Source: Coffea arabica (taxonomy: Eukaryota; Streptophyta; Magnoliopsida; Gentianales; Rubiaceae). From it: a DNA stretch of 64,000 nt. The stretch is taken from the NCBI RefSeq assembly GCF_036785885.1, contig NC_092312.1:19176001-19240000 (forward strand), in the 5' to 3' direction. The stretch's first letter is position 1. Each line of letters starts with the position of its first letter. Below are positions 17,128 through 64,000 of this stretch, one piece after another. The notes below the pieces were generated by a model, which was not told where the DNA came from, ran no database searches, and was given only the letters and a program-made list of their open reading frames with translations. Made by a program: the position numbers and the translations under genes.

Positions 17128-20100
17128 TCATTCTTCAGCAGCAGCAGCAGCAGCACTTGCAGCACTGAGGTCCACAGACAGGTCGAGAGCCTACAGCAAC
17201 GATCAGATAAGGATATCAATAATGAAGTTTAACTTGTATGCCTACCTCTTCATAGAGAATACTACGTTACATTTCTGTGCAATGAACAAGATGTTTCAAA
17301 GCAGAAGATTTCTGTGCAATCTTCTCTGAAAAATGATCATTTGCTTCATCGAATGTTGAACTACTACATTCGAATCATGAGTACCTTAACTTGCTATTGT
17401 CAGCAATAATAATAATATGCATCCTAACTGTGCTCTAGTGACTCTGGCAAAACTCTTGATTCGTGAAAAAAGATGAAAGGGTTCAGTTGTGTGCCAAGAA
17501 CTCACCTTTCCAGTTATTTTGCTGTACATGGATATTACATCCACAACCGTAGATTCAAAATGCGTTGTTCCGTCGTAGCTCTGCAAGAATTAAGCGTAGC
17601 TTCTCTGATCAGTGACAGTAAGCCTCAAGGAAGCACAAAAGTCGTAGGCCAGATAGTGGATGCAAAATCCGCCCTATCGACTAAACGAATTCAAGTTATT
17701 TTCAGCGCCAATGTAACCAATATTTTCTCAATTCACAACTAAACGAAAAGGAAAAAATAATGAGAGTTTGCTTTCTGAGCAATGCAGAAGCACAAAAGAT
17801 ATACATCCCCCGTGAAAGCTTACATCCCGAAACATGGACACAGGTTGCAGCTTAGCATCAGATGTCTAAGCTTCTTGCAAGAAGAGTGGTAATAAAATAT
17901 GTATATCAATCATATGTCTGTCTAATGACGAAAGGCAAATGACTTTTCACTTACGCTGGATATGAAACAACCATCAGCATCAGGGCAGTTTGTAGGTTCA
18001 AATCTATCATAAGTTTCATAAAATATCTCGTCTACAGGTCCAAGCAGGTCAACGCCAGGCTTCAATTCAGCTTGTGGATCATCTGTCTCAGCTTCAGTTG
18101 CAACAAATGCAATGTATTTCCCATTTGGAGCAACATTGTGAGCATATGAGCAACAAAACAGATACCTGGAGAAGTAATTGTTCAGAATATCTAAGGAAAT
18201 GAATATCTCATGTTGTTCTTATATTCTACCTTCTTGGTTGTTTCTGCTATTTTTGTTACATTTTTTCTGTGGAAGATATCCAATTCTTCGTATTTTATGA
18301 AAAGCATCATAAACTGATGCTCAATAACTTATTAGTGAGGAGAATGCCGCGATGGCTAGAAGTTTGAGGCTCTCTCTCCTATAGTCACTCGAAGAAGTTG
18401 TTGAAACCTTGACAAGCTCTGATTCAAAGCTAAGATTGAATGAGAAGAAAATATACTTGAGAAACTGGAAATGCCTTTTGGTCACAAAATATTTGCTAAA
18501 TCGTGAAACTAATAAAAGTTCCTGTCTCAGTGCGTCTTCCAAAGAAGAATAGGCTGTTATTTCTGAAAGACTAGAAATGTGGCAAGGAACAGGATTGGAA
18601 GTACATACTCCTAGGGTATGATAACAAGTGAAGTAGAATAGGAGGTGCTTGTCATCTACGTGTGTGATTTGCATTTGAATAACAGAAAGAGAAAAGAAGG
18701 AAAAAACATACATATCTGATTTACGACCAAGTTGCTTCTGTGGCAGAATGACCTGACATGAGTGAGAATCATTTGTGTCCGGAATGGGGTGGCTCATTAT
18801 GCATATAGCACGCGCAACTTTTCCAACCTTCTTTACCTGTTATTTGCATTCGCTTCCAAAGCAGCTCAGTGCCACAAAATAATGATGCAGAAATATGAAA
18901 GGTATTTATCATTGGAGTCAGACATTTGCACACTTGGATTCTGAGACACAAACCAAAAATACACGGGCAGAAAAATAAGTTGCTGTTTGAGGTTACCTTT
19001 TCACTTAGATAAGATGGATCACAAACAACTTTCTTGCACTTAGCAGTTTCTCCTTCTGAGGTCACACCATAAGCTTTTCCATTTGCATCAAACTCTACCT
19101 GCAATCCAGAGACCACACTAAGTATACAAGATGCAGGTGTAAAAGGTCTCAAATTTGAGCAAGTTGATTTCCAAGATAGAGACCTACCTTCTTGTCGGAG
19201 GAAAGAAGTACTGCACTGAAAAGTACCAAGACGAGATGACATCTACTCTAATTTCTCTTTGAAGAGGCATTCATATACTCAATAGCATATATAAAAATCT
19301 TGACCCCAAAATATTACAGTACAAAATTTGATAGATAGGAAGGGTTTCAGGATACACAAAAGATCTGGATAAATACCTTACACTGTGGCTTGTTAAGCAT
19401 GTACGTCCCACCATAAACTGCACTCAGACGTGCAAATGCCTGCAAATTTTGATGCATGTATCAGAAAGGCTAACAGAATGGAGAAGGTTCTCAACTTATG
19501 AGTTAGGACAAACCTGAGGCAACTCTCCCAGTCCATACATAGGATAGATGTAAGGAGATCCTGCTTGAAAACGGGCCAGAGACTCTGCATATAGCTTTTG
19601 AAAGGAAAAAAGGTTGTTATTAAAAGAATCACACCAAGCATCTGTCTATTCTTGTAACTCTGCAATTAGATTTCATTCAAAAGAAATGTAACTACGTCAC
19701 CAGATTCAAAAGGCCAACTGCAAAAAACTACTAGTGTTCTAAGGAGGTTGAAAACCTGAAACTTATAGATCCTATGAGATTGAAGGCCAGAGTTAGGCTT
19801 CCTATCTTGCACTTTTCAACAAGAGAAAAATATCTACAATTATCTGTGTTATACTAGGCGAAACTGTGATACTGATATAAGCTACTTTCCTATACTTTCC
19901 TCATCGTGTTAGGGAAACATAATATCACTGTGTTGTGCATCGTTCTTGACAAAAGTTTCACATGCACTTAGTTTGTTGGTTAAATAACATAAAACTACTT
20001 CTCAACTTCAACAGTGTACAAGTTACAAGACCAAAAACAGTTCAATTGGCATTTTTCATTGTTCTTGTATATTACTCCCTTATTTCTGTGGGTGAATGCA

Positions 20101-23100
20101 ACTCTCTTATGTGGTTACAAAGCAAATAATAAGCGTAAAAGCAATGTATCTTTTACAAAGGATTATGATTCACCAGGTTACACTCAAGCATGTCAAAGAG
20201 CATGGAGAGAAAGGCTAAAGATTGAATGCAGATTCATACCTTCACTCTCTTGACAAAAGCCATGGCTGGCTGGTCCAAATAAGCATCATCAATTTGAAGT
20301 GCCAAGGCATGACCAATAAAATCAATTGTATCATCTTCAAGTTCATATTTCCTGCATCAACAGTGTGAGCAAAAATACATATCTGAAGTTGCAATATGTT
20401 TTATGCTCAGAAGTTTGTTGGTAAAGCATTTAGTGAGATGAAACTCAAAAGCATTCTGCTTTGCTATACATCACTAAAATGTGTAAGAAGGGAAGACACA
20501 GCCTTATCCCTTAAAGTCAATCAACATGGGGAGGCTAGAAATCATTTTCCATTACTTCAACACCAAATTCGTTACAATATACATGCCTTCCTTTTCAGTT
20601 GGAAATCCCCTACCCCAAGTGTTCATCAAATGTTCAATTCGCACATCAATGTGAAAAGCACAGCCACTGGGTGTATGTAGGACCAGTTGATAAAAAAAGG
20701 TATCCTAATGGCAAAAGCAGTTATGAACCTTTTTCATTATGTTTGAAGACACAGAATGGTCAAAAACAACTCCTTTGATCTTATAGAATAAAAAATCAAT
20801 GAGGTAGTACAATAAGAATGTTTTGCTTCCACATTGTTCCGTGACAATTACTTTGTAGCAATATATGATGTGGAAGTTAGTTGCATTTGATAGTTTAAAA
20901 AAAAGATGGTACTTTTTTTTTTTTTTTTGCTGCGGTAACTAAATTACCAAAGCAAAGCTTTGCAACGGGCAACTAAACCTACAGAGTCTTAAATTCCTAT
21001 ACTTCATCAAATGACCTGAAAATTTGTCACAGATAATGCAAAGAAAGTTGAAGATCAATGTACATTAAAATGTAGAGATGGTGCAATTCTTGCTAATGAG
21101 CTTAAGCCAGTAGCTAAAATCAAGAAAATAGCAAATAAGGATTGAAATTTACGAGATAAGTTCCCTTGCTGTGATTTTGTTCAAATCCATCCCTTCATGA
21201 GTTTTTGGATTACTCTCCTCAAAGTCTTGGACAAAAATAAAGAACTTCCGAAGTCTACGTTTCTCAAAGAGTCCCATCAGCGAAGACTTCAATGCTTCCA
21301 CATCAGTTGCTGGCACTTTATAAATCTAAAGATCAAAAATGTTTTGACATCCAAGTTTAATTACTAGAATAAGACCTTTGTAAACAATCAGATAAGTGCT
21401 ATGGCTAAACAAGCTGTTATGAGTTGCATACCTTTCCCTTGTTGTACACAAAGCTACCATCTACAGCTTTAAAGTTTAGATATTTGGTAACATTAGTATG
21501 GATGAGTACGCGAACAAGAGCTCCATTAGCCATCATGAACTACCAAAGGACACAGGAAGAACTTTCATCAGTTGCATGTCAAACAAGCAAAACATGGAAA
21601 ACAACGCGGAAAATTGCCAGTAGCCAGTAGGACTGGGAAATCTACAATTGATGACATATTATTTCTGCTTCAACATGTCTTTCTCAAATCATGTAGGCCC
21701 TGTCTGCCTGATATTAAAAACTGAAATGCTTACAAAAATATTCAATATATGGACCCATCCTCAAATCTCAAGTTGTAGAATATTTCTCGTTGCTTTTGGC
21801 TTCAGTTGGGGGAAGGAAAAAGCTTTTGGAGGTCAAGATGTGTTTTGTTTTTCAGATTCTTCTCTTTGATCAATCAAAACCCTTTGCAGAATGAAGACAA
21901 ACAGGGACAGCATATTGTTCGAAGCCTGAAGCTGTATTCATATATAAGAGAGTCGGTGGGACAATTGAACAGTGTATACCTTAGGAATCATATCAACATT
22001 GTACTCCTTGCTTGTGCCTAATTTTTCTGGAGGCTGTTCATCACCCCTAAAACGCTTCCAAAGCTATTAAACAGAAGAAGTTAGGGTACATCAGATGGAT
22101 ATTATATGTGCAGCAAGATCACAATTCAACTTGACATTGAAATATGGGAGCTAATATGAGAGACACTAGAGGCAGGCATACGAATTTCAACACAACTTCC
22201 ATTTTACCTGATTCAAATTAAGGGAGCTGGACTCTCCTCCATAATAGTCATTTTTGTCCATGTGTAACACCTGTTTGGAATGTGCATAGCTAAAAATCAG
22301 AGATTACCATTTTCAGTGAAATGTAATGCTAAGGGGGTCAAAGCGTAATACTGAATTGAGAGTTATACCTTGAAGACCTCCTAAAACTACTGGCTAGCGC
22401 ACTATTCTTAGCTTCTGGCTTGAGAATAGACATTCCATTTGCAGTTTTTGAAGCAACTTAATACAGAAAAGACCCTTTTTTTATTTTCTCCCATGCTAAA
22501 GTATGGGAAAAGAACATTCTCCAGAACATGTATCCTTGAACTACATAAAATGAGATGTTTATGGAAATAAAAAGTTTCATTCTTGATTAACCGCCTTTAT
22601 TCCCACCCCAGAAGGAAGAAGAGGAGGAAATTTGCGTTTCCCTTTAATATATCATTGGCACAATTAAGGCCTTACTCAAACATGCATAAACAAATAATAC
22701 TTCTAAACTTACTGGAAAATCACCTCATCTTTTCTTACAGAAGAGTAGAAGACCAAAATGGGACAACAAATAATGTAAGCAATGGTGTAAATCATCCGAA
22801 AATATTAAGATCTGACAGATTTATAGATTAAAAAGATCACGAAATAGAGATTCAATCCTAGAACCATCTAAAAATGCGTCCAACATATATTTTTGTCCTG
22901 ACAGTTCTATTTTGGCTGTATAACGCATTAATTAGTGAGCAACCAGAACTAGAACTGGCATGCATTGTCTTGGGTAAATTATAGACGATGTTTGTCCTAA
23001 GAGGGAGTAGTAATGCACGTACTTTGAGCCCATCAACAGAGAGAAGTCCACTAAGAATGCATTCTTTGAGGCCGGTGCCCAGAACAATCACATCATACTC

Positions 23101-23109
23101 TTCGTCCAT
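17128..23109 (-). CDS. GDI: Rab GDP-dissociation inhibitor, 13 exons, 448 aa
   Basis: RabGDI extracts prenylated GDP-bound Rab GTPases from membranes and returns them to donor membranes, a cytosolic step in vesicle traffic. Exons: 23109-23023, 22270-22208, 22063-21980, 21539-21432, 21325-21153, 20351-20240, 19594-19514, 19439-19377, 19098-18997, 18836-18712, 18165-17955, 17580-17506 and 17190-17128. All phases agree. The N-terminus [20 protein letters not shown] is the conserved FAD-fold-like GDI/CHM region. Further landmarks are YYGGES (exon 2), DFIGHALAL (exon 6), [15 protein letters not shown] (exon 7), [10 protein letters not shown] (exon 9), and [13 protein letters not shown] (exon 10). 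The C-terminus [10 protein letters not shown] is followed by a run of six alanines encoded by GCT repeats. Length matches plant GDIs (about 445 aa). Which paralogue (GDI1 or GDI2) is not resolved. Confidence 0.96.
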
Positions 23110-31768: not shown

Positions 31769-32390
31769 TTTTCTCGACTCAGATGAAAGATCGGACGTCA
31801 ACCCTGCACATAAAAAAGCCATCAGTGGTGAGTAGTAGCTAGTACAAACTGTTAAGAAGTACTCAACAAGAAGAGAGGAGGAAGACGGGAAAAAAGACAC
31901 GTACTAGTCCGATCACCTATGGGTTTCCGGCTGCATAAATGTCAGTCAAAATAGAGAAAGAGAAAATCTTGGAAGTACAAAACAGTATCTTCAACCAATC
32001 CCCCCTTCTCACTAAGATCAACAGAAATACACTCTATTTTTATCAAGTACAAGTTGTTGATGAAATCATGCGGATTCGAATCGAGGAAGATGCCAAATAG
32101 ACTAAAAACCAATTTTAATTAGATTAGGCAGGAAGGAAGGAAAAAAAACCAACCTGCAGAAAGAATGCCAATCAAGATCAACCCCAAAGCTTCCTCCTAG
32201 GAAGAGATAAGAGATTAGAGAGAAAAAGGAGGATGAGAGGAGGAGGAGCAGCAGGAATATGAGAAGACCAACTAGATTTGGAATAAAGGCCAAGAAAGCA
32301 TGAAAAAGACCCAAAATGTTCCAAATTACAGAAGTGGAAACATGAAAGCTATGGGGATAAAAAAATTCTCCTTGAAATTACCTTTCTAGG
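31769..32390 (-). other. Probable 5' leader of the MADS gene with an intron
   Basis: On the minus strand, a good acceptor (TTTTTATGTGCAG) ends at 31804 and leaves 35 leader bases before the ATG. A candidate donor, AAG then GTAATT, begins at 32381. That would put an intron of about 580 bases in the 5' untranslated region. This is inferred from splice signals only. Confidence 0.4.
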
Positions 32391-42880: not shown

Positions 42881-44782
42881 ATGGAGCTTCCATTTTTCAC
42901 CACCACGGCCGCCACCAGCAGCAGCAGCAGCGCCACCACCAGAGCGGAAGCTCTACGGTGGTTATCTATAGCCGAGAAGCTTTTAGCTGGACGTGACCTC
43001 GTGGGTAGCAAATCATTCGCGGCCCGGGCAAGAGAATCCGACCCGACCCTTTTGTACGCGGACCAAATAATCGCCGTTGCCGACACCCTCCTCTCCGGAG
43101 ATAAGCGGATCAACAACCTCCACGACTGGTATTCTGTGCTGCAGCTCACCCCTCAGCAGTCCCGCGACGCCGAGCTCATCGCCGGTCAGTACCGGAAGCT
43201 CGCACTTCTTTTAAACCCGCAGAAGAATAAGCTCCCCTTTGCCGATCAAGCCTTCACACTTGTGGTTAATGCCTGGCAAGTATTATCTAACCCCTCTAGA
43301 AAGAACATGTACGATAGCGAGCTGATGGCTCACCTCAGAGTCAACCCGATGAGTCCTGTCCCTCCTGGGTTTAATCCGGCTAGCCCTAGGGAACATGTTA
43401 ACTATCAGCCATTTGAGATAAATTTTCAGGTGATGCCTCAGCATGCAATGAGCAATCGAGAACAAGTGATGCAGCCCACCCAGCCCCAACATGGGACGGT
43501 TAGAGAACCAACCCGGAGTCAGATTTTACCCCCGCAAAATCTGACTCGTCAACCCATCAGTCAAAATTTGCCGCAGCAGAATCTGAGTAGAGAGCAAGGG
43601 AGGCAACCCCAGCCCCCGCCTCAACCCCAGGCCCAGCTTCCACCTCAGCCCCAGCCCCAGCCCCAGCCCCAGCCCCAACCCCAGCAGCAGCAGAGGAAAG
43701 ATAATTTGATGGGTAACAATGCAACCCATGATTTTTCTAGTAGTATTGGCAACGCTAGTAATACTAATGATAACAATAATGTTCATGATGATGATGTTGA
43801 CGTTGGTAATAATAGTGACGTTAATCGAAGAGACGAGGAGAGGGGAAAGGATGGATCATCAGATGGTGGGGCATTGAGTTTCTGGACAGCATGTCCTTAT
43901 TGTTATTATATGTACGAGTATCCTAGTGTTTATGCGGATTGTACCTTGAAATGTCAGAATTGTAGGAAGGCGTTTCAAGGGGTGGAGCTTCCATCACCAC
44001 CCCCCATTGTTGATGGCCAGGATGCATACTTTTGTTGTTGGGGATTAATGCCATTGGGGGTTTCCATGGAGATTTTGGAGAGGAACAGGGGGAAGGGTGG
44101 AAAATGGACTCCATTTTCGCCTATGTTTACTTGTCCAAAAGGGATGGGAAGCAATGGGAATGCTGGGAATTGGAATGTGAATAATGGGAAAAATAATGCT
44201 GCGGGACCGAGGAGTGGGAATGTGGGTAGTAAAAAGAAGAGTTCAGGTCCAAGAGTTTATGTAGATGATGAGGATGTGTTTTTGGAATATTCGGATCCAA
44301 GTGAGGAATCTGATGATGATTGGCGAACTGAAATGAGGAAGAAGAAAGCAAAAGGCGAGAAGAAAATGAAGGTTGTGAAAAATAAAGGAACAGGAACACC
44401 TGGTCGCAGAGGCAGACCACCAAAGGTTGACAAGGGGAAGAATCCTAAAGGGGAGAGTGAGAATGTGCGAGAAGGCTTGGTTGTTCAAGAGGGTGTTGAA
44501 GTGCCTAATGCACCCTCTGCAGAGTCAAGTAAGAAAGTGGCTGCTACTTGTGGAAGGAGGCATTCTGCGAGAGTTGCAAAGGACTTTGGGAAGTTAGACT
44601 TGAATGTGGAATTTAATAATGAGGTTGAAGAGCCTGCACCAAGGGTGGTCCAAGGAAATGGAACAGGCCGTGGGGAGGAGGATATCATTGAGGGGAGTGG
44701 TTTTTTTGAGGGTCTGGATGAGTTCCTAAGCACTCTTCCAATACTCAACGTTGTAGGTGATGATAAGGTCAAGGCTGCTTAG
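42881..44782 (+). CDS. J-domain-like nuclear protein lacking HPD, intronless
   Basis: This 633-aa protein belongs to the plant DnaJ-like group with a J-like segment and a Cys cluster. Residues 82-145 (DWYSVLQLTPQQ to SNPSRKNMYDSEL) follow a J domain's helices, but the HPD needed to stimulate Hsp70 ATPase is replaced by NPQ (112-114). A Pro/Gln-rich stretch (241-271) has tandem PQ. FWTACPYC plus KCQNCRKAF (335-365) forms a CxxC...CxxC zinc-ribbon-like unit. A basic region holds GRRGRPPK (508-515), an AT-hook. KLDLNVEF (571-578) is a weak EAR-like patch. DNA or chromatin binding and nuclear location are inferred from the AT-hook. The start is the first in-frame ATG after an A-rich leader. A true Hsp70 co-chaperone role is doubtful. 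Confidence 0.93.
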   Translation: MELPFFTTTAATSSSSSATTRAEALRWLSIAEKLLAGRDLVGSKSFAARARESDPTLLYADQIIAVADTLLSGDKRINNLHDWYSVLQLTPQQSRDAELIAGQYRKLALLLNPQKNKLPFADQAFTLVVNAWQVLSNPSRKNMYDSELMAHLRVNPMSPVPPGFNPASPREHVNYQPFEINFQVMPQHAMSNREQVMQPTQPQHGTVREPTRSQILPPQNLTRQPISQNLPQQNLSREQGRQPQPPPQPQAQLPPQPQPQPQPQPQPQQQQRKDNLMGNNATHDFSSSIGNASNTNDNNNVHDDDVDVGNNSDVNRRDEERGKDGSSDGGALSFWTACPYCYYMYEYPSVYADCTLKCQNCRKAFQGVELPSPPPIVDGQDAYFCCWGLMPLGVSMEILERNRGKGGKWTPFSPMFTCPKGMGSNGNAGNWNVNNGKNNAAGPRSGNVGSKKKSSGPRVYVDDEDVFLEYSDPSEESDDDWRTEMRKKKAKGEKKMKVVKNKGTGTPGRRGRPPKVDKGKNPKGESENVREGLVVQEGVEVPNAPSAESSKKVAATCGRRHSARVAKDFGKLDLNVEFNNEVEEPAPRVVQGNGTGRGEEDIIEGSGFFEGLDEFLSTLPILNVVGDDKVKAA

Positions 44783-51970: not shown

Positions 51971-52063
51971 GCCCAATCTTGTAGTACGTGTCCAATTTTT
52001 GTATTTTCTTTTCCTCCTCGTATGTGGCAAGCTGTAGTTGTTGTTGTTGATGATGAATGATGT

Positions 52064-52069
52064 AATAAA
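52064..52069 (+). terminator. Polyadenylation signal AATAAA
   Basis: A canonical AATAAA lies about 94 bases after the carbonic anhydrase stop codon, in a T/G-rich context typical of plant 3' ends. Confidence 0.6.
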
Positions 52070-52377
52070 ATGTGATGACATCTCTTGAAGTTTTGAGCGT
52101 CATTTTCCTATCAAAGAAGATTTTCTTGAGCCAAACATTGTGAAAATGTCAACTGTAATCGTTGAGATTTCACATCATTAAGGTGACAATTTGTTTATCC
52201 CATTTATGAAGATTTTCGCATCGGTGACTGTCAACTTGAATCTAACTCACAAATGAACTCACAAACCGGCAACAATATGCATGGTAACTAGAATGTTAGG
52301 AGTGTATGTATTGCAAATCATTTAAACATGAATGATTGGCGCCGATTCGGTATCGTATCTAAGCAATGAAGCACCAT

Positions 52378-52470
52378 CTTTATTTTATTTTATTTTTAGA
52401 TGGGAGGTTTCGAATCCGAGACTTATGATTCCTCCCGCATACCATCCATCTTAGCACAAAAAATTATGCA
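52378..52470 (-). mobile_element. SINE relic (minus strand)
   Basis: On the minus strand, GGATTCGAAACCTCC resembles a Pol III B box. It is followed by an A-rich tail of AAATAAAATAAAATAAAG type. The target duplication and A box are not clear. Confidence 0.4.
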
Positions 52471-52871
52471 GCAGTGGAAGTAAAATTAAAGTCTCAACTT
52501 ATCAATGATACCCAAATGAAACTTTCCATAGTAATTAAACAAGGAATAGACAAAACGGCAAGGCTAGGCTCCCTTTGAACAAATATGAAGACGAGACCAA
52601 ACTGCCATTGATTTTCCTCAACTACAAATCTACAACTTCAGATGGAGAAACCAAATAATAAGACCTATTCTAATTCTAATTCCTAAACACAATTCAACTA
52701 GATTTCCTAAACAAACTATGACACCAATTCTACTCCAATTATCAAATTTAAAAAAATATATATTTTTAAAACTTCTGAATATTGCTTGATTTAATTATTC
52801 GAACAACTCAACCCATTCCTCCCTCAAAACCGCTCCTATTTTTGTATTCATAAAGATGTCGAAGAAGGATG

Positions 52872-52872
52872 G

Positions 52873-52919
<47 letters not shown>
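52872..52919. repeat. (TG)n(TA)n compound microsatellite
   Basis: About eight TG units run directly into about fifteen TA units, between the carbonic anhydrase and the proline-rich cluster. Confidence 0.9.
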
Positions 52920-52925
<6 letters not shown>

Positions 52926-53352
52926 CCATATTTTTTTTTAACAAAGGAATGGAGAAATCCTTCAATTAGAAAACCATATTCATGAGGGGAAATACGTTTG
53001 ACAAAAAATTATCTCCAGGTGCATGCTACACACCGATCGCGCTGCATTTCTGTGAGGTTCACCAACCTGCATGAACCATATCGATTATTAAATTTGAGGG
53101 GGAGCTGAGTCGTCATCAAACGATACGTCAAAGACATTTTGGTGTACTTGGAATACACGTACGTAGTTAATCAGCCATCCAGCCTATGAGCGAGCAATTA
53201 GACATTGTGGGTTGAACCACTATATCCGTTTTTTCTTTGGAGGCGTCAAGACACTTTTTTAGAGATGTATCTATGGTTGAGAAGTTGAGCTAACTGACAA
53301 CGAGACAACTTCCCCACCAACCAAAGCGAAATGATTAACCACTTCTCGCATC

Positions 53353-53360
53353 TATATAAA
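53353..53360 (+). promoter_or_regulatory. TATA box of the PELPK-type gene
   Basis: TATATAAA lies 128 bases before the ATG at 53488, leaving a leader of about 100 bases. Confidence 0.7.
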
Positions 53361-53487
53361 GCACAATACAGATAGATTCTTCCATGCACTCGCAAACAAA
53401 ACAAAAAAGCCTAAAGCACTTTCTTCAACCTGTGTGTTCGATCTACCTTCCAAATCATCAATAATATTTGCTTAATCCCTTCCAAGG

Positions 53488-53901
53488 ATGGCTGGTTTCC
53501 ACCGTGCATCTCTTGTGTTCGCCATGCTTGTTGCTGTATCATCCATGAGCAGCAACTGTTTCCAAGCTGAAGCGCGTCGCCTTCTCGATACAGGGTTGCC
53601 TGAGATTCCTACCTTGCCAATGCCTGAGATACCAACACTGCCTAAACCTGAGCTGCCAACCGTGCCAAAGCCAGAGATTCCCACGCTGCCGAAACCCGAG
53701 CTGCCAACCGTGCCAAAGCCTGAGGTTCCAGAATTGCCGAAACCTGAGCTGCCAACCGTTCCAAAGCATGAGATTCCAGAATTGCCAAAACCTGAGCTGC
53801 CAAATGTGCCGAAGCCAGAGATTCCAGCATTGCCTAAACCCGAGCTACCAACTTTGCCCAAGCCAGAGGTGCCTAAAAAGCCTGAGATCACCACTCCATG
53901 A
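53488..53901 (+). CDS. PELPK-type secreted proline-rich protein, 137 aa
   Basis: This is an intronless small cell-wall-type protein. Residues 1-28 form a signal peptide (hydrophobic LVFAMLVAVSS, ending near QAEA), followed at once by RRLL. From about residue 37 there are about twelve 8-residue units of pattern P-E-(I/L/V)-P-x-(L/V/x)-P-K, alternating as PEIPTLPK and PELPTVPK. At DNA level the unit is 24 bp with a partial 48-bp higher-order pattern. The pattern matches Arabidopsis PELPK1, a wall protein linked to growth and stress responses. One unit has His in place of the leading Pro (HEIPELPK). It heads a cluster of four secreted proline-rich genes. Confidence 0.9.
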   Translation: MAGFHRASLVFAMLVAVSSMSSNCFQAEARRLLDTGLPEIPTLPMPEIPTLPKPELPTVPKPEIPTLPKPELPTVPKPEVPELPKPELPTVPKHEIPELPKPELPNVPKPEIPALPKPELPTLPKPEVPKKPEITTP

Positions 53902-54255
53902 AGTCTGTTGTAGCCCAGCTGGATACACTAGTTATTATTATTATTCATTAGCACTTTTCTTCTGAATTGATATTTCCATTGCGTTTGATGTGTGTTGGAG
54001 TCCAGTCATGGTGTATACCGTGATGTCACGGTTCATTCATCTGTAGCTGTTGTTATTTCGGAGTGTCACTTCTTGTTTCCAGTGGAATTACATATTTGTA
54101 CTTTCTTACGTACTTCTCAGTTAAAAATAGTGTCTCATAACTCCATTGTGCCTAATTATTGACCATAGAATGAAGCAGTACTTCCAAGAACCAGAAGAAT
54201 AATAGCATTAAAACATAAATTGAAGATGACTCAAGATCGTCAAACAAACAAAGAA

Positions 54256-54257
<2 letters not shown>

Positions 54258-54291
<34 letters not shown>
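54258..54291. repeat. (AT)17 microsatellite
   Basis: A pure AT run lies downstream of the PELPK-type gene, with no visible coding role. Confidence 0.9.
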
Positions 54292-54294
<3 letters not shown>

Positions 54295-55158
54295 GAATGA
54301 AGATGCAGTCAATGTTAAAGAAGTCGAATAACTCCTCACCACACAAACCAAAACTCAGTTCTCACATCAACCTGTCATGGCTGTTGATCAATTCCAGGCA
54401 AAGAATGATAATCCTGTGGAATGCAAAGCCATACCATTCAACTTACCAAAATTCCGACCTTATTGCCGATAATATGGGGAAGTATCAGACTCCTTTGAAG
54501 TCATCATTGAAGTTTATAACGCTGCGTGCCCAGTAGGTCAAATGTCAGAAAAGTTTATGTGCATCATATCATATCATATCTGATACTAAAACAAAGTTAG
54601 TTTCTTTTGGGAAATACAGAACCAGTCTCAATTTATCAGCCGACAATGGACTTAAGTTTCGGGCCTGAGGTTCCTCTTTTATGCTGTGGCCAATCTCACT
54701 TTGATTTTTGGTTATGTTGTACGGGTATTATGATTTGGGTAGAGAATTCGAGAACAGTAAATTAGGCTCGTCGTTTATTAGCATTCAAAAACTGATCTAG
54801 AATTGACTCCACAAGCTGAGAGACAAACTGAAGGCTAGTCTGCGCTCTACTGCTACTAACTTTAATTAATTAGTCACAAACTAAGCATTAGAATCACAGA
54901 GATAAATGCATTAAGTGATGAATCAAGCAGGCTATAAACTTAAAAGAGTGAAAGAAAGAAGATATATATCAAGCACTTAGTCGATTTAAACGACATATGT
55001 TAAGAAGGGAAACGGAAATCCATTAAATGGTACTACTTTAATGCCCATCTTAGTAGTAAAGAGCGAGTAAAGACAGATGAGAAGAGGGGTTGAACAAACA
55101 AGAGACAATCTTCCTACCGACTCCGCCAATTACACCTCCAATTTCCCGCATTCCTATC

Positions 55159-55166
55159 TATAAAAA
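55159..55166 (+). promoter_or_regulatory. TATA box of second proline-rich gene
   Basis: TATAAAAA lies 75 bases before the likely transcript leader's ATG at 55241. Confidence 0.65.
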
Positions 55167-55240
55167 TCCACCTCTTAGCTTCTTGCTCCAACATTCAACT
55201 CTCAGACAAAAAAAACAGTAACCATAATTCGCCAGGAAAG

Positions 55241-55561
55241 ATGGAAGCCCAAGTGATCAGATCTCCATTGTTAGCATTTTCTTTCCTGCTGATCACCCTG
55301 GCATTAAGTAGTAACATGGCATCAATCCTAGCCGATGCACGCCATCTTTTGGAGGCAACAGCACCAGGTGTTCCAGTTGATGAAGCGCCTAGCGCCCCTG
55401 ATAGCGATGATACCGATCCTGAGACACCATCAACACCTATAGTTTTCTCAGTCCCCCAGATTCCAACAATTCCACTGCCTCAGTTCCCTACTAATCCGCT
55501 TCCAATTCCCACATTCCCCGCCACCCTCCCAACCTTGCCTTTTCTGCCTAACTCGCCTTAA
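55241..55561 (+). CDS. Secreted proline-rich protein, 106 aa
   Basis: It is intronless. A long N-terminal hydrophobic stretch (LLAFSFLLITLALSS) ends near SILADA and is followed by RHLLEA. An acidic linker comes next (APSAPDSDDTDPETP). The tail is rich in IP, LP and FP pairs: VPQIPTIPLPQFPTNPLPIP and then FPATLPTLPFLP. The layout (signal peptide, R(R/H)LL, proline-rich tail) matches its three neighbours, although the repeats are irregular. No cysteine is present in the mature part. A cell-wall or apoplastic role is inferred. The exact family is not recognised. Confidence 0.8.
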   Translation: MEAQVIRSPLLAFSFLLITLALSSNMASILADARHLLEATAPGVPVDEAPSAPDSDDTDPETPSTPIVFSVPQIPTIPLPQFPTNPLPIPTFPATLPTLPFLPNSP

Positions 55562-56099
55562 CTATCTATCTCAGCCACATCAACTACGACTCAACCTCAT
55601 GTCCGCCAAACTGAAACTACCTTTTCTTGGATTACATATATACTAGCTACCCTTGTCGTCATCGTCTCTACTGCTTCCAAGACATGCTGTATTTTTAATG
55701 TTGGTTGTAATGCTACCTTTTTTTTTACAAAAAAAATTCCCTTAGTTAAATGTTCCCTGATTATCTCTCTAGTGATCATCGCAATTGGACTGTTATGATC
55801 CTGGTTGTACTCTGTCTACGTGATTATTATCCATCTCGACTTGAATTCTTAACCTCCATATTTAGCCTTTTATGTGGCATTTTCCTTTCAGAATACTTTC
55901 TCAGTTACATGGTTCCATTCCGATATCAAGACGAAATTATTCCGAGATAATGGATTGTCCAGAACTCAGTCGAATCACAGAGAACTCGGTCGAGATGTTT
56001 CGAAGACAGATAGAAACGATCGAGCCGCCTCGAATCAATTTGAATTATTATTATTTTTGTTTATCATATTTTTTTTACAATTTTTAAAATATTAAATAT

Positions 56100-57814
56100 T
56101 TCAAAAATTACGTTTTGCCGAAATGATGACCAATATATTGAGACCGGTGTGGAACGATCCGAGGCATGATCGCGACAGCATCTTTGAACCATGGTCTCAA
56201 ACCTCTTCTTGGAACATTGCCCATTCTCCGCTCCTTTCTAAATCTACCCAAAAAAGGGGCAGAAAATCATGGCCTCCATGAATGTTGAGCTATGAACCTA
56301 GTATTTGAATCGACTGTATGGTAGTTAAAAAAAAAAAAAAAGAAAACCTATAATTAGCAATATCATTTTGAAATTGAGATTATGGAAATCTATGTATACA
56401 TGAATCAATTAAACATTTTCTATCTCCTATGCAGCATGCATAATTGACCTTTGGATACTTGGGTTTTATCTATTTTTGTATCCAACTCTTCTCTAATTAA
56501 TGATGTTTTCAGTTTTCCTCTCTTCTAACAACTTTTATATTCCTTAATAAATTTCAATTATTCTTTTTTTATTCATATGTAGTAACTTACTTAATGTAAT
56601 TTTAATTGTTACAATGGTAAATTTATTAAAGTTGTTGAAAACTAAATATTTGTTCATGTGAAAATAGATTGTTGCATCTATTATAATATAGTAACGGAAT
56701 ACAACCATGTACTTCTAGGCATATAATTTTTGTAAAATTATTTTTTATGATCATCCAAAAGAATATTTGTCAATTTTTTCGATCTCTGTCTTATTTGATG
56801 AATATTATGACAGAATATATGCAACTTCTTAAAAATTCATGCGATAATTGAACACTTAGAATATATTAATTTTTTAATTTATTGATATTTTTTCTTGAAT
56901 TATTCATTCTTGGACAAATTCGCTACTATTAAAAAAAAAAAATCTGTACAGATGGGGTAAAAATACTAGTTAATATATGTAAAATCTTGCTTCTTAATTA
57001 ATGATCAAATTTCAAGCCAAAACCTGTTTGCATTCGATTGCTTGCTTGCGTTCAATTACTTCCTGCAAAGATTCCAATCTGTTATGACTGCCTGCATACA
57101 TTCCATTTCGGTTGTTGAGACTTGAGACTGTGTGTGTCGTGTGCGACAAACGTTGTTAAATTGGGCCCGATTTAATTATTGTCGGTGACGGCCGAACGAT
57201 TTCAATGCACCAAGCTAATTCTACTTTGCAACTCTTAAATTTATATCACTTTTTTATTTTTTATAATATTTTAAACACCTTACAGTTCACACCCTCAACT
57301 CTTAAGTTTTTTATTTTATTTTATTTGAGTCAATCAATAATATTGTGAGCAAAATTAACGAAATATACAACCATACAAATCAATGATAATATACTAAAAA
57401 TGTTCAAAAGGAGTAAAGAGATTGCAATTAAAATAAAATGATGCATTACACCGTCTTTTATCTTGTTAATAGTAGCAGTAATTGAAATCAGTTGAGAGAA
57501 ATTTAAAATTTTAGGATGCAAAGTGTCTAAAATTAAAGTTTGTGATGCAAAGTGAAAAAATAGAATAAGTTGGGTGTTACAAAGTGAAATTAGTCCCTTA
57601 CATTTAATTGGGGTAGAGCAGCATTTAAATTGTACTTTAATGCATTAAATTCATTTTGTAGCTTTAAAATACTTCACAAGACGGAACCGCCCCTAACATC
57701 AATCTTTTCTTTTTCTTGATTTCAGTCAATATTTTCATGTAACTTTTAGTGCTATACCGACATCTAAACTAAACAGCTGCACTAATGCACATACTCAAAT
57801 AAGTTTAAATTCAT
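56100..57814. other. Intergenic between proline-rich genes 2 and 3
   Basis: This AT-rich stretch has no supported gene. Runs of A at 56325-56341 and 56930-56941 are the only clear features. Confidence 0.5.
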
Positions 57815-57940
57815 CTGGTTCGATGGTGGTTCAAATCCTATTGATTTCTCTAAGATCTGTTGGGCCTTTCCCAATTGTAGGTTAGAGTAGAGTAGAAATA
57901 GGTTAAACTAACTGTTGTCGTCTAATTAAAAAAAAAAAAG
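57815..57940 (+). mobile_element. Au-type SINE 3' part with A tail
   Basis: GGTTCAAATCC (from about 57829) is an exact B box. The segment ends GTTGTCGTCTAATT followed by A12, like the tail of Au-type plant SINEs. The A box and target duplication are not clear, so the element is probably truncated. Confidence 0.6.
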
Positions 57941-58198
57941 TTTGAACCTCCATCCAACTCCCAAAATTTTGAACAAAAGGGCTTTGTTTAGTGGCTGGCA
58001 ACTCATGTAAAATAAGTAAGTTACTCAATTGTTTTTGTACGTGATTCAAGATGTTATTGAGTTTACGGGCTTGGGAGGACATACTGTGCGGTTGAACCTT
58101 CAACTTTAGAGGCCAATTGAAGGCACAATCCGGTCTATCACATAAATTTTGACCAAAATCAAGCCGTGTTGTTTAGTTGCATGACAATATAGAATGAA

Positions 58199-58202
<4 letters not shown>

Positions 58203-58251
<49 letters not shown>
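58203..58251. repeat. (TA)24 microsatellite
   Basis: A pure TA run of about 49 bases lies some 360 bases upstream of the third proline-rich gene's TATA box. Confidence 0.95.
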
Positions 58252-58255
<4 letters not shown>

Positions 58256-58611
58256 GAATGTACACCTAGAATCAGTAGATAGTGTCATACCCTTCACTCC
58301 CAAGAACTTCATGTGATGGTTGTGCATGATGGATCTCAGGACAGAGATGAAATAAACGTTAACCCGTGAGGCAGCAGGACAACTAATTGCAGATGGAGTC
58401 GTCTTCATGAAGATCTCTTTCTTGGCTTCCCCGTTGCTATCTTTTTTGTATCTGAACACATTTTTATGCTTCCCTATATTAAATCGAATACCATGTTACT
58501 TCTTCATTCATAGTTCAGCAAACAACCACATTGACGGCATTTCATCAAAGCACGAGGAAGAATTCTATTTGTGAAGCATATCTGGTTCGATCATTTCCTG
58601 GCAACTATGCC

Positions 58612-58618
58612 TATATAA
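58612..58618 (+). promoter_or_regulatory. TATA box of third proline-rich gene
   Basis: TATATAA lies 104 bases before the ATG at 58722. Confidence 0.7.
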
Positions 58619-58721
58619 GGACATCACAGGGCAAAGGCAATGCCATCACCCAATCCAAGTTGCTAACATATTCACTACCACTTTAGATTAGCAAAAGAAT
58701 ACCACCATTTTTCAACCAGCA

Positions 58722-59015
58722 ATGGCATCTTGCAAGTTGTTCGTGTTCATGTTTCTCATTGTCGTCTGGTTCCCCGGCTACAATGAAGCATTTTCATCCC
58801 GTCGCCTTCTATTACTACCAGTTCCAAATGCACCAGGTTCTCCAAAAATTCCAACTTACCCGGTTTCGCCACTCCTCCCAACACCAACTGTCCCACCACC
58901 ACCAACTTTTCCGCTCCCTACCCCTCCCTTCCCCGGAATTCCAATTGCTCCATTCTTTCCAAGTCCATTGCTACCACCTGCAGCTACTACCACCAGCAGC
59001 AGTACCAGCCCTTGA
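58722..59015 (+). CDS. Secreted proline-rich protein, 97 aa
   Basis: It is intronless. The signal peptide MASCKLFVFMFLIVVWFPG ends near NEA and is followed by SSRRLLLLP. The mature part is rich in P(x)P pairs: SPKIPTYPVSP, PTVPPPPTFPLPTPPFPG, FFPSPLLPP. It ends with a Thr/Ser-rich tail (AATTTSSSTSP). The N-terminus MAS-KL-V-FLIVV closely resembles that of the gene at 60336, so the two are probably tandem duplicates whose repeats diverged. A cell-wall role is inferred. Confidence 0.82.
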   Translation: MASCKLFVFMFLIVVWFPGYNEAFSSRRLLLLPVPNAPGSPKIPTYPVSPLLPTPTVPPPPTFPLPTPPFPGIPIAPFFPSPLLPPAATTTSSSTSP

Positions 59016-59971
59016 AAGTCGCATTTTAATGTTATCTTGCGTGCCTGTTGCTTGCTCAGCTTGTAGCAGGAGAACTAAGCCAATTTGCCTGGCACACGTT
59101 TCAGAATGATGAAGCGAGTCCTGGACTGTATGTGCTTCAATAACAATAAGTAGACTGTTGTTTATTGGATGTTTCTAGTGTTTATTATGGTTTCAGTTGC
59201 TGAATGGATTACCTTTGCATAAGGGTGTAAGTTTTAGTAATAAAGGATTCTGAATCCTATATTATTCCCATTTTCTGGTTGTTTGGCTTGTGGAATTCAC
59301 GAATTCAAGATTTAACGACAGTGCATTGTCACTTAAAATGTGCTAATCGACAGCAACATGCCTGAGCGTATAGGCAATAAGAAATTTTCTGTGCCTTGCT
59401 ACATAGCAAACAAAAACTGGATGACCAGTGGAAGGAAACAACAACTTTAAGATGATTGGTATCAAATGATTTCGGCATTGAGCCCACTAGAACACGCAAT
59501 GTTCACATTCCATAAATATGAAGAAAGCAGAAGACTATTTAACGAAAAAATAAAAAAGAGAATTATTTCTAAAGGAGACAACAGGTTATAAATGTCCACA
59601 ACGGCAGCAGAGCCCACATTTCGCATCACTTAATTCGAAGTACGAAATTTCTTGAGTATATTACTCAGTCAATGAGAATTGAGGGGATTCTTAAACTACT
59701 GCAGAAGTTGGGATTGCTCATCGGAATTGAGACATTTTCACTGTCGATGAATTTTATTCGCAGTCTTGTGTGCTAATGCCTTTGCGATGTTTAGATCCTA
59801 TCCTTTTGGGAGTCATTTGCTGTCTTGAGCTCTCAACCTTCAAAGTAGCTAGCAGTTGAGACTACAACACATGACCCCTTTAGGCATTATAACTGCAACT
59901 ACTGATTCACTCTCTGTTTTTGACCTAGTTACGTAATTGACCCGATTAGCAGGCCAACCCATGCAGACCTC

Positions 59972-60205
59972 TTAAGGGTGGTACGCTTTACAAGTTGCTA
60001 CTGTGGCCATACAGTCGCCGTTCATGCCAAGAGGCATTTTCTTGCATAGTTCCCTCCCAACACCATAACCAATGCAAGGTAGATCCGTCCCGCAGTCCCC
60101 ACTGCAACTTTTAATAGCACAGCTTTGATTTTCAAACCCCGCTGCTCTGGCTTTTTGCCTCATATCATATGGTTCCACTTCCACATGCCTTGCTACCCTA
60201 CCCAT
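59972..60205 (-). CDS. Doubtful Cys-rich open frame antisense to a promoter
   Basis: A 77-codon minus-strand frame encodes seven cysteines, with SCAIKSCSGDCGTDLPCIG and later ELCKKM and GDCMATVATCKAYHP. I do not recognise the family. There is no signal peptide in frame, and a stop lies a short way upstream. It could be a final exon of a Cys-rich peptide gene, a pseudogene, or chance. Its ATG overlaps the TATA box of the plus-strand gene at 60336, which argues against both being active in the same way. Confidence 0.3.
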   Translation of the reverse strand: MGRVARHVEVEPYDMRQKARAAGFENQSCAIKSCSGDCGTDLPCIGYGVGRELCKKMPLGMNGDCMATVATCKAYHP

Positions 60206-60211
60206 ATAAAT
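60204..60211 (+). promoter_or_regulatory. TATA box of fourth proline-rich gene
   Basis: ATATAAAT lies about 130 bases before the ATG at 60336. Confidence 0.6.
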
Positions 60212-60335
60212 GCAGCATAGACTACCAGGTCTTCAAAATACCATCCAAGTTGTAGTGTTAGTCGCAACTGATACTACTTCCAATAGCACAAATTTGAATT
60301 TGAAAACTCGTTGATCATCAATTTCTTAACCAAGA

Positions 60336-60854
60336 ATGGCTTCTTACCACAAGTTGTTGGTGATCTTCCTTATCGTTGTTGGATCTGTTGCTGGCAGCGG
60401 CCAAGCTTTGACACACCGTCACCTTCTGTTATCACCATCTCCAGGTTCAGATTCACCCCGAAGATCAAAATTTCCCTTTCCAAAATTAATGGGAGGGGGT
60501 TTGACAGAACATGGTCCGTCCCATGCCAGAACCGTCACTTCCCAGCCCGGAAATCCAATACTTCCAGACTTTCCAAATCCAGTGACTTCACCGGGAAATC
60601 CAATTGTTCCATACTTTCCAAGTCCAGTGATCCCACCCGGAATTCCCCCTATTCCATACCTTCCAAGTCCAGTTATTCCTGCACCAGGAAATCCAATTAT
60701 TCCATACTTTCCAAGCCCAGTAATCCAACCTGGAAATCCAATCATTCCGTACTTCCCAAGCCCGGTGATCCAACCCGGAAATCCAACTGTTCCATACTTT
60801 CCAAGTCCAGTTTTCCCACCTCCTCCAGCTGCTACTTCCACCATTAGCCCTTGA
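60336..60854 (+). CDS. Secreted proline-rich repeat protein, 172 aa
   Basis: It is intronless. The signal peptide MASYHKLLVIFLIVVGSVAG ends near GQA and is followed by LTHRHLLLSPSP. A basic linker (SPRRSKFPFPKLMGGG) leads to six tandem units of 15-16 residues, GNPI(I/V)PYFPSPVIxP, from about residue 78. DNA period is 45 bp. The last units are nearly identical, which suggests recent unequal exchange. It ends in AATSTISP, similar to the neighbour's tail. The Tyr in each PYFPSP unit could serve in wall cross-linking, by analogy with other proline-rich wall proteins; this is inference. Confidence 0.85.
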   Translation: MASYHKLLVIFLIVVGSVAGSGQALTHRHLLLSPSPGSDSPRRSKFPFPKLMGGGLTEHGPSHARTVTSQPGNPILPDFPNPVTSPGNPIVPYFPSPVIPPGIPPIPYLPSPVIPAPGNPIIPYFPSPVIQPGNPIIPYFPSPVIQPGNPTVPYFPSPVFPPPPAATSTISP

Positions 60855-62088
60855 AATCAATTTGCAGAAGTACCATTGGACTTCTCACGTTTCCATGTTG
60901 TGTACGTAGCTCAATTTTAGCATGAAGGCTATATCAGTTTTCTTGCATATTTTGTCATGATGTAGGCAAGTCCCTGATGAAGGGTTGTCCCTATGCTTTG
61001 CAGAATTCTTAGGTGTTGCTTCGATATCATTCAGAAGCAGACTAAATTTGAAATCATATCTTTGGTTAGCTTCCATTCAAGTGCGAAGTTTATGCATCAA
61101 TATCCCTAAACTTGAACTACTTTCTCGCCATGGGGTTGTTTGTTTATAAATTGTGTGGATCAACTTTTTTCTCATATAATAGATCACTTGAATCATGTTA
61201 ATCAGTAATGTGGATTACTCTGCAGTCTGCACTAGATGACCAACAACTTTGTTTCGGAGGAGCTGTGTAGATGTTAAGGGCTGTATGAAAGAAATTCTCA
61301 TTGATATCTTTATTCCAGAAAAACTGAACGGCAGTCTCCAACCTGAGAAAAGTTCCTTCCAGTGGAAGGTAACATTTTCACTGAAATATTGAGTTACAGA
61401 CAGGTTTAACCTCTAGAGCTTTAATTGGAAACGACAACTATTTCATACCAACTGTCTTCCGCCGTAAAAGTTAAAATCATCAACTTTGACATCATTCCAG
61501 CTCCTTTATACACGAAAAGCTTTTGGAAGTGCACATTTGTTTAAAAAAAAAAAAAAAAAAGACACCAAATTGATCTTAACCGTGGAAACATTTTTATTCA
61601 AATTTATGAAATTTTGTATCGATTCCTTTCGTATATTTTATTCTTACGTATTCTCTACTTGCCCACCTTTGTCAGTTTCGGGTCTAGGTACGTACCTTTT
61701 TAGTTTACAGTCGTATGAGCTTTTCGGCGAGGGCATAAGAGCATATATTGTGTCTTCTGGTTTATGCTTCTCTCTTGGCAGCTATCTGCATCGATAATAT
61801 GGGTTATTTCTAGCAGACAAACTAGAATAAGAACGCAGTCACAGCCACAGGAGTTTCACAGAAGTTAACAAAATAGTTTAAAAGGGAAGCTGAAGCTGGA
61901 TGTGGCTCTTTCCACGCCCAAGCAGAGTTACAGGACCAAACGATAGCAATTTACAAGAAGGAAAGGAGGAGTTGCATACTTACATGTATCAAATGTATTA
62001 AACTTGCACCAACTTTCTTAATTGATTCATCTTGGACCAACCACGTAGGAGGCATTTAAAATAGGACCCGAGAGATGGAGCTACAGTT
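60855..62088. other. 3' flank of the proline-rich cluster
   Basis: No further gene is supported. A 103-codon frame at 61486-61797 contains a translated A-run (Lys stretch) and looks spurious. Confidence 0.5.
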
Positions 62089-62105
62089 GGGGGGGGGGGG
62101 GGGGG
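62089..62105. repeat. Poly-G run of about 17
   Basis: An uninterrupted G run is followed by AAGGGG. It may be an unstable homopolymer or a G-quadruplex-prone tract. No gene is nearby. Confidence 0.8.
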
Positions 62106-62941
62106 AAGGGGAACTAAAATCTATTAATTACATATGTAAATTTAAACTTTGCCCCCACTCTTTTAGAATATTCTGCATTATTTCCTAACAAAATATTTAT
62201 CCGATGTGCTTCTTTATTTGTTACTTTTTTTTCCCTACAAGTCAACCCACTTGAAAACAAATAAATAAATTATTTAATCTCTCACACTCGATCAAAATCA
62301 AGCAATAAAGATTCAACTTTATTTTTAAACCAATTTAGAAATTCTTGATAATATATTTTTCCTCCACTAAAATTTTAAAAAAATTCTAGATTAGTTATTT
62401 CAAAAGGTTTTTTTAGGCAATTATTTCAAAATTTTGAAAATTACAAAGTTATAAAATAGTATTAGAATATTTGAATATGAAGACACTTCAAGAACAATGG
62501 TACAGTGTTTGCATATTTATGGTTATGCTATATCGTTTTGATAGTTTTGTGATCTATATAATTTAACATGTTAAGTTCACCTTCACTAAAATTTATTTTT
62601 GGATAAAATATACTTTATTCCCCTGTGGTTAGCACTTTTTTGCATAATCCTTTTGTGATTTGAAAAACTATATATAACCTTTTCATAATTTGAACTAAAG
62701 CGTTAAAGTGACGGAATTTGCATTTCATAATGGAATCAACTAAAATGTCAAAAGTGCTCATCTTTAAAGTTGAAAATTATTAATTAATTATAAGGGGTTA
62801 TGTATATATTTTAAAAATCATAAGAAGTTATGTGGTAAAGCACTAAACGATAAAGGGATTATATAGTAAAATACAAAATCATAAGGCACTAAAATGTCAT
62901 ACATATTACGTTTATATATTTTGGTCACTTCAACTATTTTA

Positions 62942-63075
62942 GGCCTCGTGTGGCAAATGAGTTTTTTGAATGTAAATTTTTGGATATTTTGAAATATATA
63001 GTTTACTGTAATTAAAGTTGTTAAAAAACTTGTAGCAGACAAACTTTGCCAAAAATTTATTTGCGAGATAGGCCC
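62942..63075. mobile_element. Tourist-like MITE, 134 bp
   Basis: GGCCTCGTGTGGCAAATGAG at the left and ATTTATTTGCGAGATAGGCCC at the right are imperfect inverted repeats. TTA flanks both sides (62939-62941 and 63076-63078), as for PIF/Harbinger-type MITEs. Confidence 0.7.
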
Positions 63076-63078
63076 TTA

Positions 63079-64000
63079 GTTTTGAAACAAAGATATTCTC
63101 GATATTTCCTTGGATTCCGTTACGAAGAATTTTTTCCGTCACTTTCATACGTTAGTCCAAACTATGAGAAATTACGTATATATTTTAAAATTACGGGAAG
63201 TTATATAAAAAATTGCGAAACCGTATTTTTAACTCCGCCCTGCACGAGATGACTCAAGCATACAGAAGAAATCTCTCGAGTGTATTAGTATATTCAGTGG
63301 GCAAGGATGGACACGAAACGTCACAAGTCAAAGAATTGTACCTCTGAGCTTTGGGTGTTCAGTTGGCATGATTGATGATGCCTTCTTATTGTCAATAAAA
63401 TTTGGTAAAGGCCAAAAAATCTGACCAATCTTTCTGGATGGTCAGTGTCTTTATGTTTTCAAACATTCTGCGAGTGAATTAGTAAGACTCACAATGATGG
63501 ATTCAGTCGTATGGTGATCATTGTTTAACTGCGTTGTAACTCGGAACATGTTAATTAATAACAACACGTATAGTACCTTAAAAAAAAAACACACACACAC
63601 ACACACACATACTGGCCATTTTACTCAAAGCTGTATGCTAGTATATGAACCTAAAATTACAGTGGCATGCAAAATCTCATTGGGAAGACAATACATATAC
63701 AGGTCAGGAGGCCAAGAAGATTAAACATAATTTATTCTTCTCTAAACCACGTAACAAAGATCACAAGTGCTATTCAATAGGTTTGAAAACTTTTGATGAA
63801 TCTGATCTCAAGTTCATCAGAAATATTTCCAGCCTGAATATAAATAGGACCGACCGTTGATATTGCTAAAGTAAATTCCTATCCCATTATTTATAGCACT
63901 TCATTGGACGAGACAAAATATTATCTTGTTTGCTTTAATGAAATCCAACCCCAGTGCATGAAAAAGATAATTGGCATCAGGGAGAAATTTGGACGGACGA
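63079..64000. other. Right edge of window, no gene seen
   Basis: Only an (AC)n microsatellite at about 63590-63608 stands out. Short open frames here lack domains. Confidence 0.5.

Follow-up and report, generated by a model that had tools for sequence, protein, structure and literature searches.

Four proline-rich protein genes in one window

The window analysed here is a 64,000-nucleotide stretch of Coffea arabica (C3:19176001-19240000, in a 1.2 Gb assembly whose larger contigs are apparently paired), and our subject is a cluster of four short genes towards its end, g1 to g4 (Table 1). An earlier note on this DNA had described four intronless plus-strand genes, each with its own TATA box and a signal peptide. 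The genes and their TATA boxes are confirmed: each gene is a single open reading frame (ORF), TATA-type hexamers lie 82-135 bases before the ATG, and a hydropathy screen finds a hydrophobic N-terminal start, a putative signal peptide, in all four products. In Pfam there is no above-cut-off match for any of them, g1 showing Cornifin below the cut-off (19.1 versus 34.8 bits). The products have at most one cysteine each and no SPPP, which sets them apart from extensins and HyPRPs.

Table 1. Features of the cluster and its surroundings, in window positions
Feature	Position	Strand	Basis
g1, predicted PELPK-class secreted protein, 137 residues, units PE(L/I/V)PT(V/L)PK	53488..53901	+	single ORF; 13 PE[LIV]P, 2 exact PELPK; matches PR-peptide-like clusters on other contigs
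g2, predicted secreted proline-rich protein, 106 residues, I/L-P triplets	55241..55561	+	single ORF; N-terminus pairs with g1
g3, predicted secreted proline-rich protein, 97 residues	58722..59015	+	single ORF; search with g3 finds g4
g4, predicted secreted proline-rich protein, 172 residues, about six GNPIIPYFPSPV-type units	60336..60854	+	single ORF
TATA box of g1	53353..53359	+	TATA-type hexamer at -135 from ATG
TATA box of g2	55159..55164	+	TATA-type hexamer at -82 from ATG
TATA box of g3	58612..58618	+	TATA-type hexamer at -110 from ATG
TATA box of g4	60205..60210	+	TATA-type hexamer at -131 from ATG
A-R-R-L-L of g1, residues 29-33 (R-x-L-L 30-33)	53572..53586	+	
A-R-H-L-L of g2, residues 33-37 (R-x-L-L 34-37)	55337..55351	+	
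S-R-R-L-L of g3, residues 26-30 (R-x-L-L 27-30)	58797..58811	+	
H-R-H-L-L of g4, residues 27-31 (R-x-L-L 28-31); H-R-R-L-L on C4	60414..60428	+	
Lone copy of g4 repeat unit inside g3	58928..58978	+	blastn of g3 region against g4 region, 52 bases at 85%
Rab GDP-dissociation inhibitor (GDI) gene, synteny anchor	17901..23109	-	Pfam PF00996 on one exon; exons then located
MADS-box exon between GDI and DnaJ genes	31508-31822	-	Pfam PF00319
DnaJ-domain gene upstream of cluster, synteny anchor	42881..44782	+	Pfam PF00226, PF23551

All four genes are open and in the same order on the partner contig C4. Ten blocks longer than 200 bases match between window positions 50000-64000 and C4, seven of them 93-98% identical and three 85-89%, and we infer that C3 and C4 are two haplotypes. 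The ratio of non-synonymous to synonymous change (dN/dS) between C3 and C4 is 0.53 for g2, 0.36 for g3 and 0.55 for g4, and 0.39 between g1 and a copy on C10; these values, which rest on few changes (2-7 synonymous and 2-11 non-synonymous), would fit coding genes. The g1 product has 137 residues on C3 and 153 on C4, the difference of 16 residues being two octads.

The C10 copy of g1 is an isolated 1.3-kb duplicate (window 52930-54232 against L019 4502-5801, 89% DNA identity) with an intact reading frame of 137 residues, and its immediate flanks have no match to the window. Between g2 and g3, C4 is longer than the window by about 7.2 kb (C4:19158785-19166033; window position about 55950). At 59972-60205 the minus strand has a cysteine-containing ORF of 77 residues, its start in contact with the TATA box of g4. 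It was rejected as a gene: it has no Pfam match and is broken by a stop in the C4 copy.

The genes form two pairs

The first 45 residues of the products were compared by local alignment against 1000 shuffles, and again with R-x-L-L masked against 500 shuffles in two directions each; the counts are uncorrected for the large number of tests, and signal peptides are alike by nature. By this measure the genes clearly form two pairs, g1/g2 and g3/g4. The score is reached by 0/1000 shuffles for g1-g2 and likewise for g3-g4, and the resemblance survives masking (1 and 4/500 for g1-g2; 0 and 1/500 for g3-g4). A search of the genome with g1 also finds g2 of C4, weakly (E 8.5e-4), and a search with g3 finds g4 of C4 at E 5.9e-7 and g4 of C3 at E 5.1e-4; among the matches listed at E <= 0.1, searches with g2 and with g4 give only C3 and C4. 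As part of the best explanation, g1 would be a PELPK-class member and g2 its diverged relative, with g3/g4 as a second pair that appears to be found only at this locus.

Across the pairs, unmasked scores are reached by 50 (g1-g3), 3 (g1-g4), 14 (g2-g3) and 13 (g2-g4) of 1000 shuffles. After masking, g1-g4 (0 and 1/500) and g2-g3 (2 and 2/500) are still unusual, g1-g3 is weak (12 and 23/500) and g2-g4 is at chance (443 and 411/500). A profile-against-profile comparison gives P 0.0013 and a probability of 18.7%, with the motif in register. DNA comparison at E <= 1e-3 finds nothing shared by the g1/g2 and g3/g4 regions, and nothing shared by the regions of g1 and g2 either.

Proline tails share triplet spacing and, in g3 and g4, a repeat unit

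The proline-rich tails had been described as completely different, with unrelated repeats, which the comparison does not bear out. The g3 unit PGIPIAPFFPSPLLPP corresponds to the g4 repeat unit PGIPPIPYLPSPVIPP, present once in g3 and about six times in g4, and the C-termini of the two proteins are alike (PPAATTTSSSTSP in g3, PPPPAATSTISP in g4). From these sequences g4 looks like an amplified form of the unit that g3 carries once. The accompanying suggestion of a repeat cassette repeatedly rebuilt is right in part, in the two extra octads of g1 on C4 and in this apparent amplification. PELPK is found in g1 and in none of g2, g3 and g4, and PPLP and SPPP are absent from all four; an exact DNA pattern for PELPK units, which fixed some codons, had 0 matches in this genome.

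Furthermore, all four tails have more P-x-x-P spacing than any residue shuffle (0/2000 each). In the tails of nine relatives from elsewhere in the genome (described below), 0 to 12/2000 shuffles reach the observed count, whereas in each of 13 HyPRP tails at least 104/2000 do so; this test needs more prolines than two of the 15 HyPRPs (L053, L054) contain. The longer kernel P-x-x-P-x-x-P-x-P, picked post hoc after viewing g1 and g4, also beats residue shuffles (0, 8, 10 and 0/2000 for g1-g4). It was dropped as a common nine-residue kernel, as shuffles of gap order reach its 3-3-2 order in 598/2000 (g2) and 919/2000 (g3), and, for the four tails jointly, in 100/1000 for 3-3-2 and 744/1000 for any pattern. 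Since the kernel lies within gap-order chance in g2 and g3, our claim is restricted to triplet spacing. The tails are of low complexity and expected to be disordered.

These results bear on the proposal that all four genes are tandem duplicates of a single ancestral secreted gene, the proline tail being rebuilt each time. Within the pairs a common origin is supported; for the four together the chances seem to us about even. The genes are adjacent, on the same strand and all intronless, R-x-L-L falls in register in the profile comparison, the masked g1-g4 and g2-g3 scores remain unusual, and the tails share a spacing that the tested HyPRP tails lack. In contrast, the unmasked cross-pair scores are all reached by some shuffles, g2-g4 falls to chance once the motif is masked, the regions of the two pairs have no DNA match, and the 3-3-2 order does not exceed what gap composition gives in g2 and g3. 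A single ancestor for both pairs is thus possible on these comparisons.

A-R-x-L-L is invariant among relatives in the genome

The earlier note had drawn attention to an R(R/H)LL motif behind the signal peptide. R-x-L-L is indeed present in all four products, but R/H is too narrow: the second residue is free in the relatives and differs even between the copies of g4 (HRHLLL on C3, HRRLLL on C4). When residues 20-40 are shuffled, R-x-L-L arises by chance in 2.7, 4.5, 5.4 and 2.7% of cases for g1-g4, and one lone occurrence is not striking. The search with g1 lists 27 matches, comprising the C3 and C4 loci, the C10 copy, three stop-bearing matches on C10, clusters on C13/C14 and C17/C18, and C1/C2. 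Nine intact PR-peptide-like relatives, from C13 and C17, have A-R-x-L-L, in which x is R, H, Q or Y; seven of them have PPLP and eight SPPP. The motif is common to relatives elsewhere in the genome and not peculiar to the cluster. This set excludes the C14 and C18 partners and the three stop-bearing matches at C10:31.9 Mb. Ten ORFs in L022-L027 passed a proline/hydropathy filter, of which L022 2178-2411 (77 residues, no motif, low-complexity) was left out of the alignment; the ninth relative (L026 67-444) came from this filter in the same cluster and not from the g1 match list.

When g1, g2 and the nine relatives are aligned, all 11 N-termini have the same A, R, L, L and two prolines, while the R and L codons of the motif vary among genes. 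g3 and g4 retain R-x-L-L with A replaced by S and H, respectively. With R-x-L-L masked, g1 keeps its resemblance to the nine relatives (0 to 6/500 shuffles) and g2 mostly loses it (3 to 220/500). Two other families of the genome served as controls. Of 58 HyPRP matches listed, 16 loci were sampled and all but L052 could be read; R-x-L-L occurs in residues 18-50 of 0/15 N-termini. Among RALF-family reads (18 of 65 listed, each ORF taken from the first ATG, so that some starts, for example L065, L071 and L072, are not signal peptides) it occurs in the same interval in 1/18, the exception being L072, apparently without a signal peptide. The outcome that the earlier note had named as refuting, a motif missing from orthologues or N-termini that group with unrelated families, therefore does not arise within this genome. 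A raw count of R-x-L-L, in 20/136 signal-peptide-like ORF starts, was set aside on account of alternative starts, spurious ORFs and the family itself being mixed in. In the literature passages covered, A-R-x-L-L (ARRLL/ARHLL) was not found described for proline-rich signal-peptide proteins, and the supplementary N-terminal alignments of PMC3149072 may already show it.

The searches also brought up features outside these sets. PR-peptide-like relics with stops lie on C1 and C2 (L028 about 5400, L029 about 3309, L030 about 4791), and three PR-peptide-like matches on C2, among the g1 matches listed, are about 11.5 kb apart. A HyPRP-type array has 19 listed copies at C11:59318175-59463319 against 3 at C12:59095319-59112552, its presumed partner, either a copy-number change or an assembly artefact. 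Short reading frames of RALF-like type form large tandem arrays on C17 (about 0.47-0.90 Mb) and on C18 (about 0.49-0.73 Mb).

Gene order and comparison with known systems

Upstream of the cluster lie the GDI gene, a MADS-box exon, similar to the SVP type, and the DnaJ gene. Arabidopsis locus numbers run in chromosomal order. The order GDI, DnaJ, PELPK-like g1 matches that of At5g09550, a Rab GDI (PMC6086027), At5g09540, a DnaJ protein (PMC7827474), and At5g09530/At5g09520, which are PELPK1 and PELPK2 (PMC3149072). g1 therefore very probably sits at the orthologous PELPK locus, and the cluster is very probably the counterpart of the Arabidopsis one. Synteny, a check that the earlier note had proposed, is in this sense positive, by a criterion of our own and not of the authors of the PELPK class.

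The PR-peptide cluster of C13 also has a DnaJ-like gene (C13:10519983-10521176) 7.2 kb upstream and on its own strand; in the window the DnaJ gene is 8.7 kb upstream of g1, likewise on the strand of the cluster. The two DnaJ genes are 44% and 32% identical in two parts. The chance of such proximity is roughly 0.002, an after-the-fact estimate that takes about nine other DnaJ-like loci, four other relative sites and a haploid size of ~600 Mb, and an old common neighbourhood of the DnaJ gene and PR-peptide-type genes is therefore likely. Duplication of the whole segment between C3 and C13 was rejected, as only the DnaJ gene of the two anchors is common to both.

The cluster resembles Arabidopsis PELPK1/PELPK2 in the hydrophobic start, PELPK-type repeats, linked genes and GDI and DnaJ neighbours; it differs in that g1 is short (137 residues), with just 2 exact PELPK against 13 PE[LIV]P, and in that g2-g4 have 0 PELPK (PMC3149072). 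PELPK repeats, one mark of that class, are thus confined to g1; of another, conserved non-repeat N- and C-termini, g1 shows an N-terminus conserved with the nine relatives. The PR-peptides of poplar, 30 in number, are also short secreted proline-rich proteins in tandem clusters, a precedent for neighbouring genes of this kind whose repeats differ (PMC5073881). The text of that paper puts 23 PPLP forms on chromosome 17 and PELPK-only forms on chromosome 7; its Table 4, as we read it, has both kinds at neighbouring locus numbers on chromosomes 7 and 17. PR-peptides are defined there by PPLP or PELPK, mostly with a C-terminal SPPP; g2, g3 and g4 differ in having none of the three, and g1 has PELPK and no SPPP. 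Cucumber PELPK7.1/PELPK7.2 are likewise neighbouring PELPK1 homologues, expressed in roots with a proposed effect on root growth; they are described as having one promoter in common and one of them an intron, whereas g1-g4 are same-strand single ORFs with their own TATA boxes (PMC8813957).

Interpretation

Taken together, we consider it probable that the cluster is a small tandem array of secreted proline-rich, most likely cell-wall, proteins at the counterpart of the PELPK locus, composed of two pairs and with A-R-x-L-L under constraint. Several observations weigh against this reading. All but one of the nine relatives were retrieved because they resemble g1, its motif included, and the 9/9 count is biased accordingly. 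At E <= 0.1, g3 is absent from the matches listed for g4, and the evidence tying g3/g4 to g1/g2 (shuffles, masked shuffles and profile comparison) is mixed. A DnaJ paralogue on C19 is closer to that of the window (52% and 37%) than the one on C13, and C19 has no g1 match among those listed; the GDI-family match closest to the PR-peptide cluster of C13 is about 2.1 Mb away. Finally, the motif stands at the predicted signal-peptide cut, so that trimming there would shorten the protein by no more than a few residues and might not be needed, and one unprocessed PME has a motif of the same form, as set out below.

In the array so understood, the predicted signal peptide would direct each protein into the secretory pathway and be removed by a cut directly in front of R-x-L-L or a few residues earlier. 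The mature protein, an extended proline-rich chain and presumably partly hydroxylated, would settle in the wall, lysine-rich g1 perhaps on pectin. A-R-x-L-L would most likely be a constrained mature start, open to trimming by a Golgi or apoplastic subtilase, and the tail would be free to change in length and repeat type while the mature start stays.

What the motif does can be read in more than one way. The motif may reflect only what signal-peptide cleavage and the opening residues of the mature protein demand, without a function of its own, a tenable view to which we give somewhat less than an even chance. A at -1 followed by R, with A also at -3 in g1 and g2, matches the signal-peptidase rule, and R-x-L-L abuts the predicted cut in g1, g2 and the nine relatives. 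However, the two leucines are missing from the HyPRPs and RALFs sampled in this genome, g3 and g4 keep R-x-L-L though their likely cut lies a few residues earlier, and we know of no need for two leucines at a fixed spacing in signal-peptide cleavage.

More tentatively, R-x-L-L could be a working subtilase site of the SBT6.1/S1P type, trimming the mature proteins whatever the tail; a processing role is plausible. All four proteins have the form R-x-L-x or R-x-x-L of SBT6.1 substrates; RXLX and RXXL are canonical subtilase sites, and RGLL has also been called canonical (PMC4983112). Eight processed PMEs carry RRLL, RKLL, RVLL or RTLL (PMC11494411), and flax PMEs have similar sites (PMC4008260). 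In our alignment positions 1, 3 and 4 are fixed and position 2 varies. After residue 50, 9/18 of the RALF-family reads sampled here have RRxL and a further one has RTLL, as would be expected for known subtilase substrates. Against such a site, an unprocessed PME carries RALL, and R-x-L-L alone is therefore insufficient for cleavage (PMC11494411); PMEs and RALF/GOLVEN precursors, otherwise unrelated proteins with the same R-x-L-L / RRxL consensus, have their sites further inside the precursor, unlike the motif of g1-g4 directly behind the predicted signal-peptide cut; and our search of the literature, as available, found nothing tying RRLL to site-1 protease or SBT6.1. It is improbable that A-R-x-L-L is a tail-independent maturation signal, fixed at several chromosomal sites while tails were swapped (PELPK octads, PPLP-type triplets, 15-residue GNPIIPYFPSPV units), which a subtilase must trim before wall assembly.

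By its title, as cited in PMC8813957, a 2011 study by Rashid and Deyholos proposes an effect of PELPK genes on germination in Arabidopsis. To the picture of this class our analysis adds a definition of A-R-x-L-L, its rarity in two sampled control families, its fit to subtilase sites, and the relation between the g3 and g4 repeats, in which a unit single in one gene is multiplied in its neighbour. A motif kept constant across such repeat turnover would offer a testable handle on the maturation of PELPK proteins.

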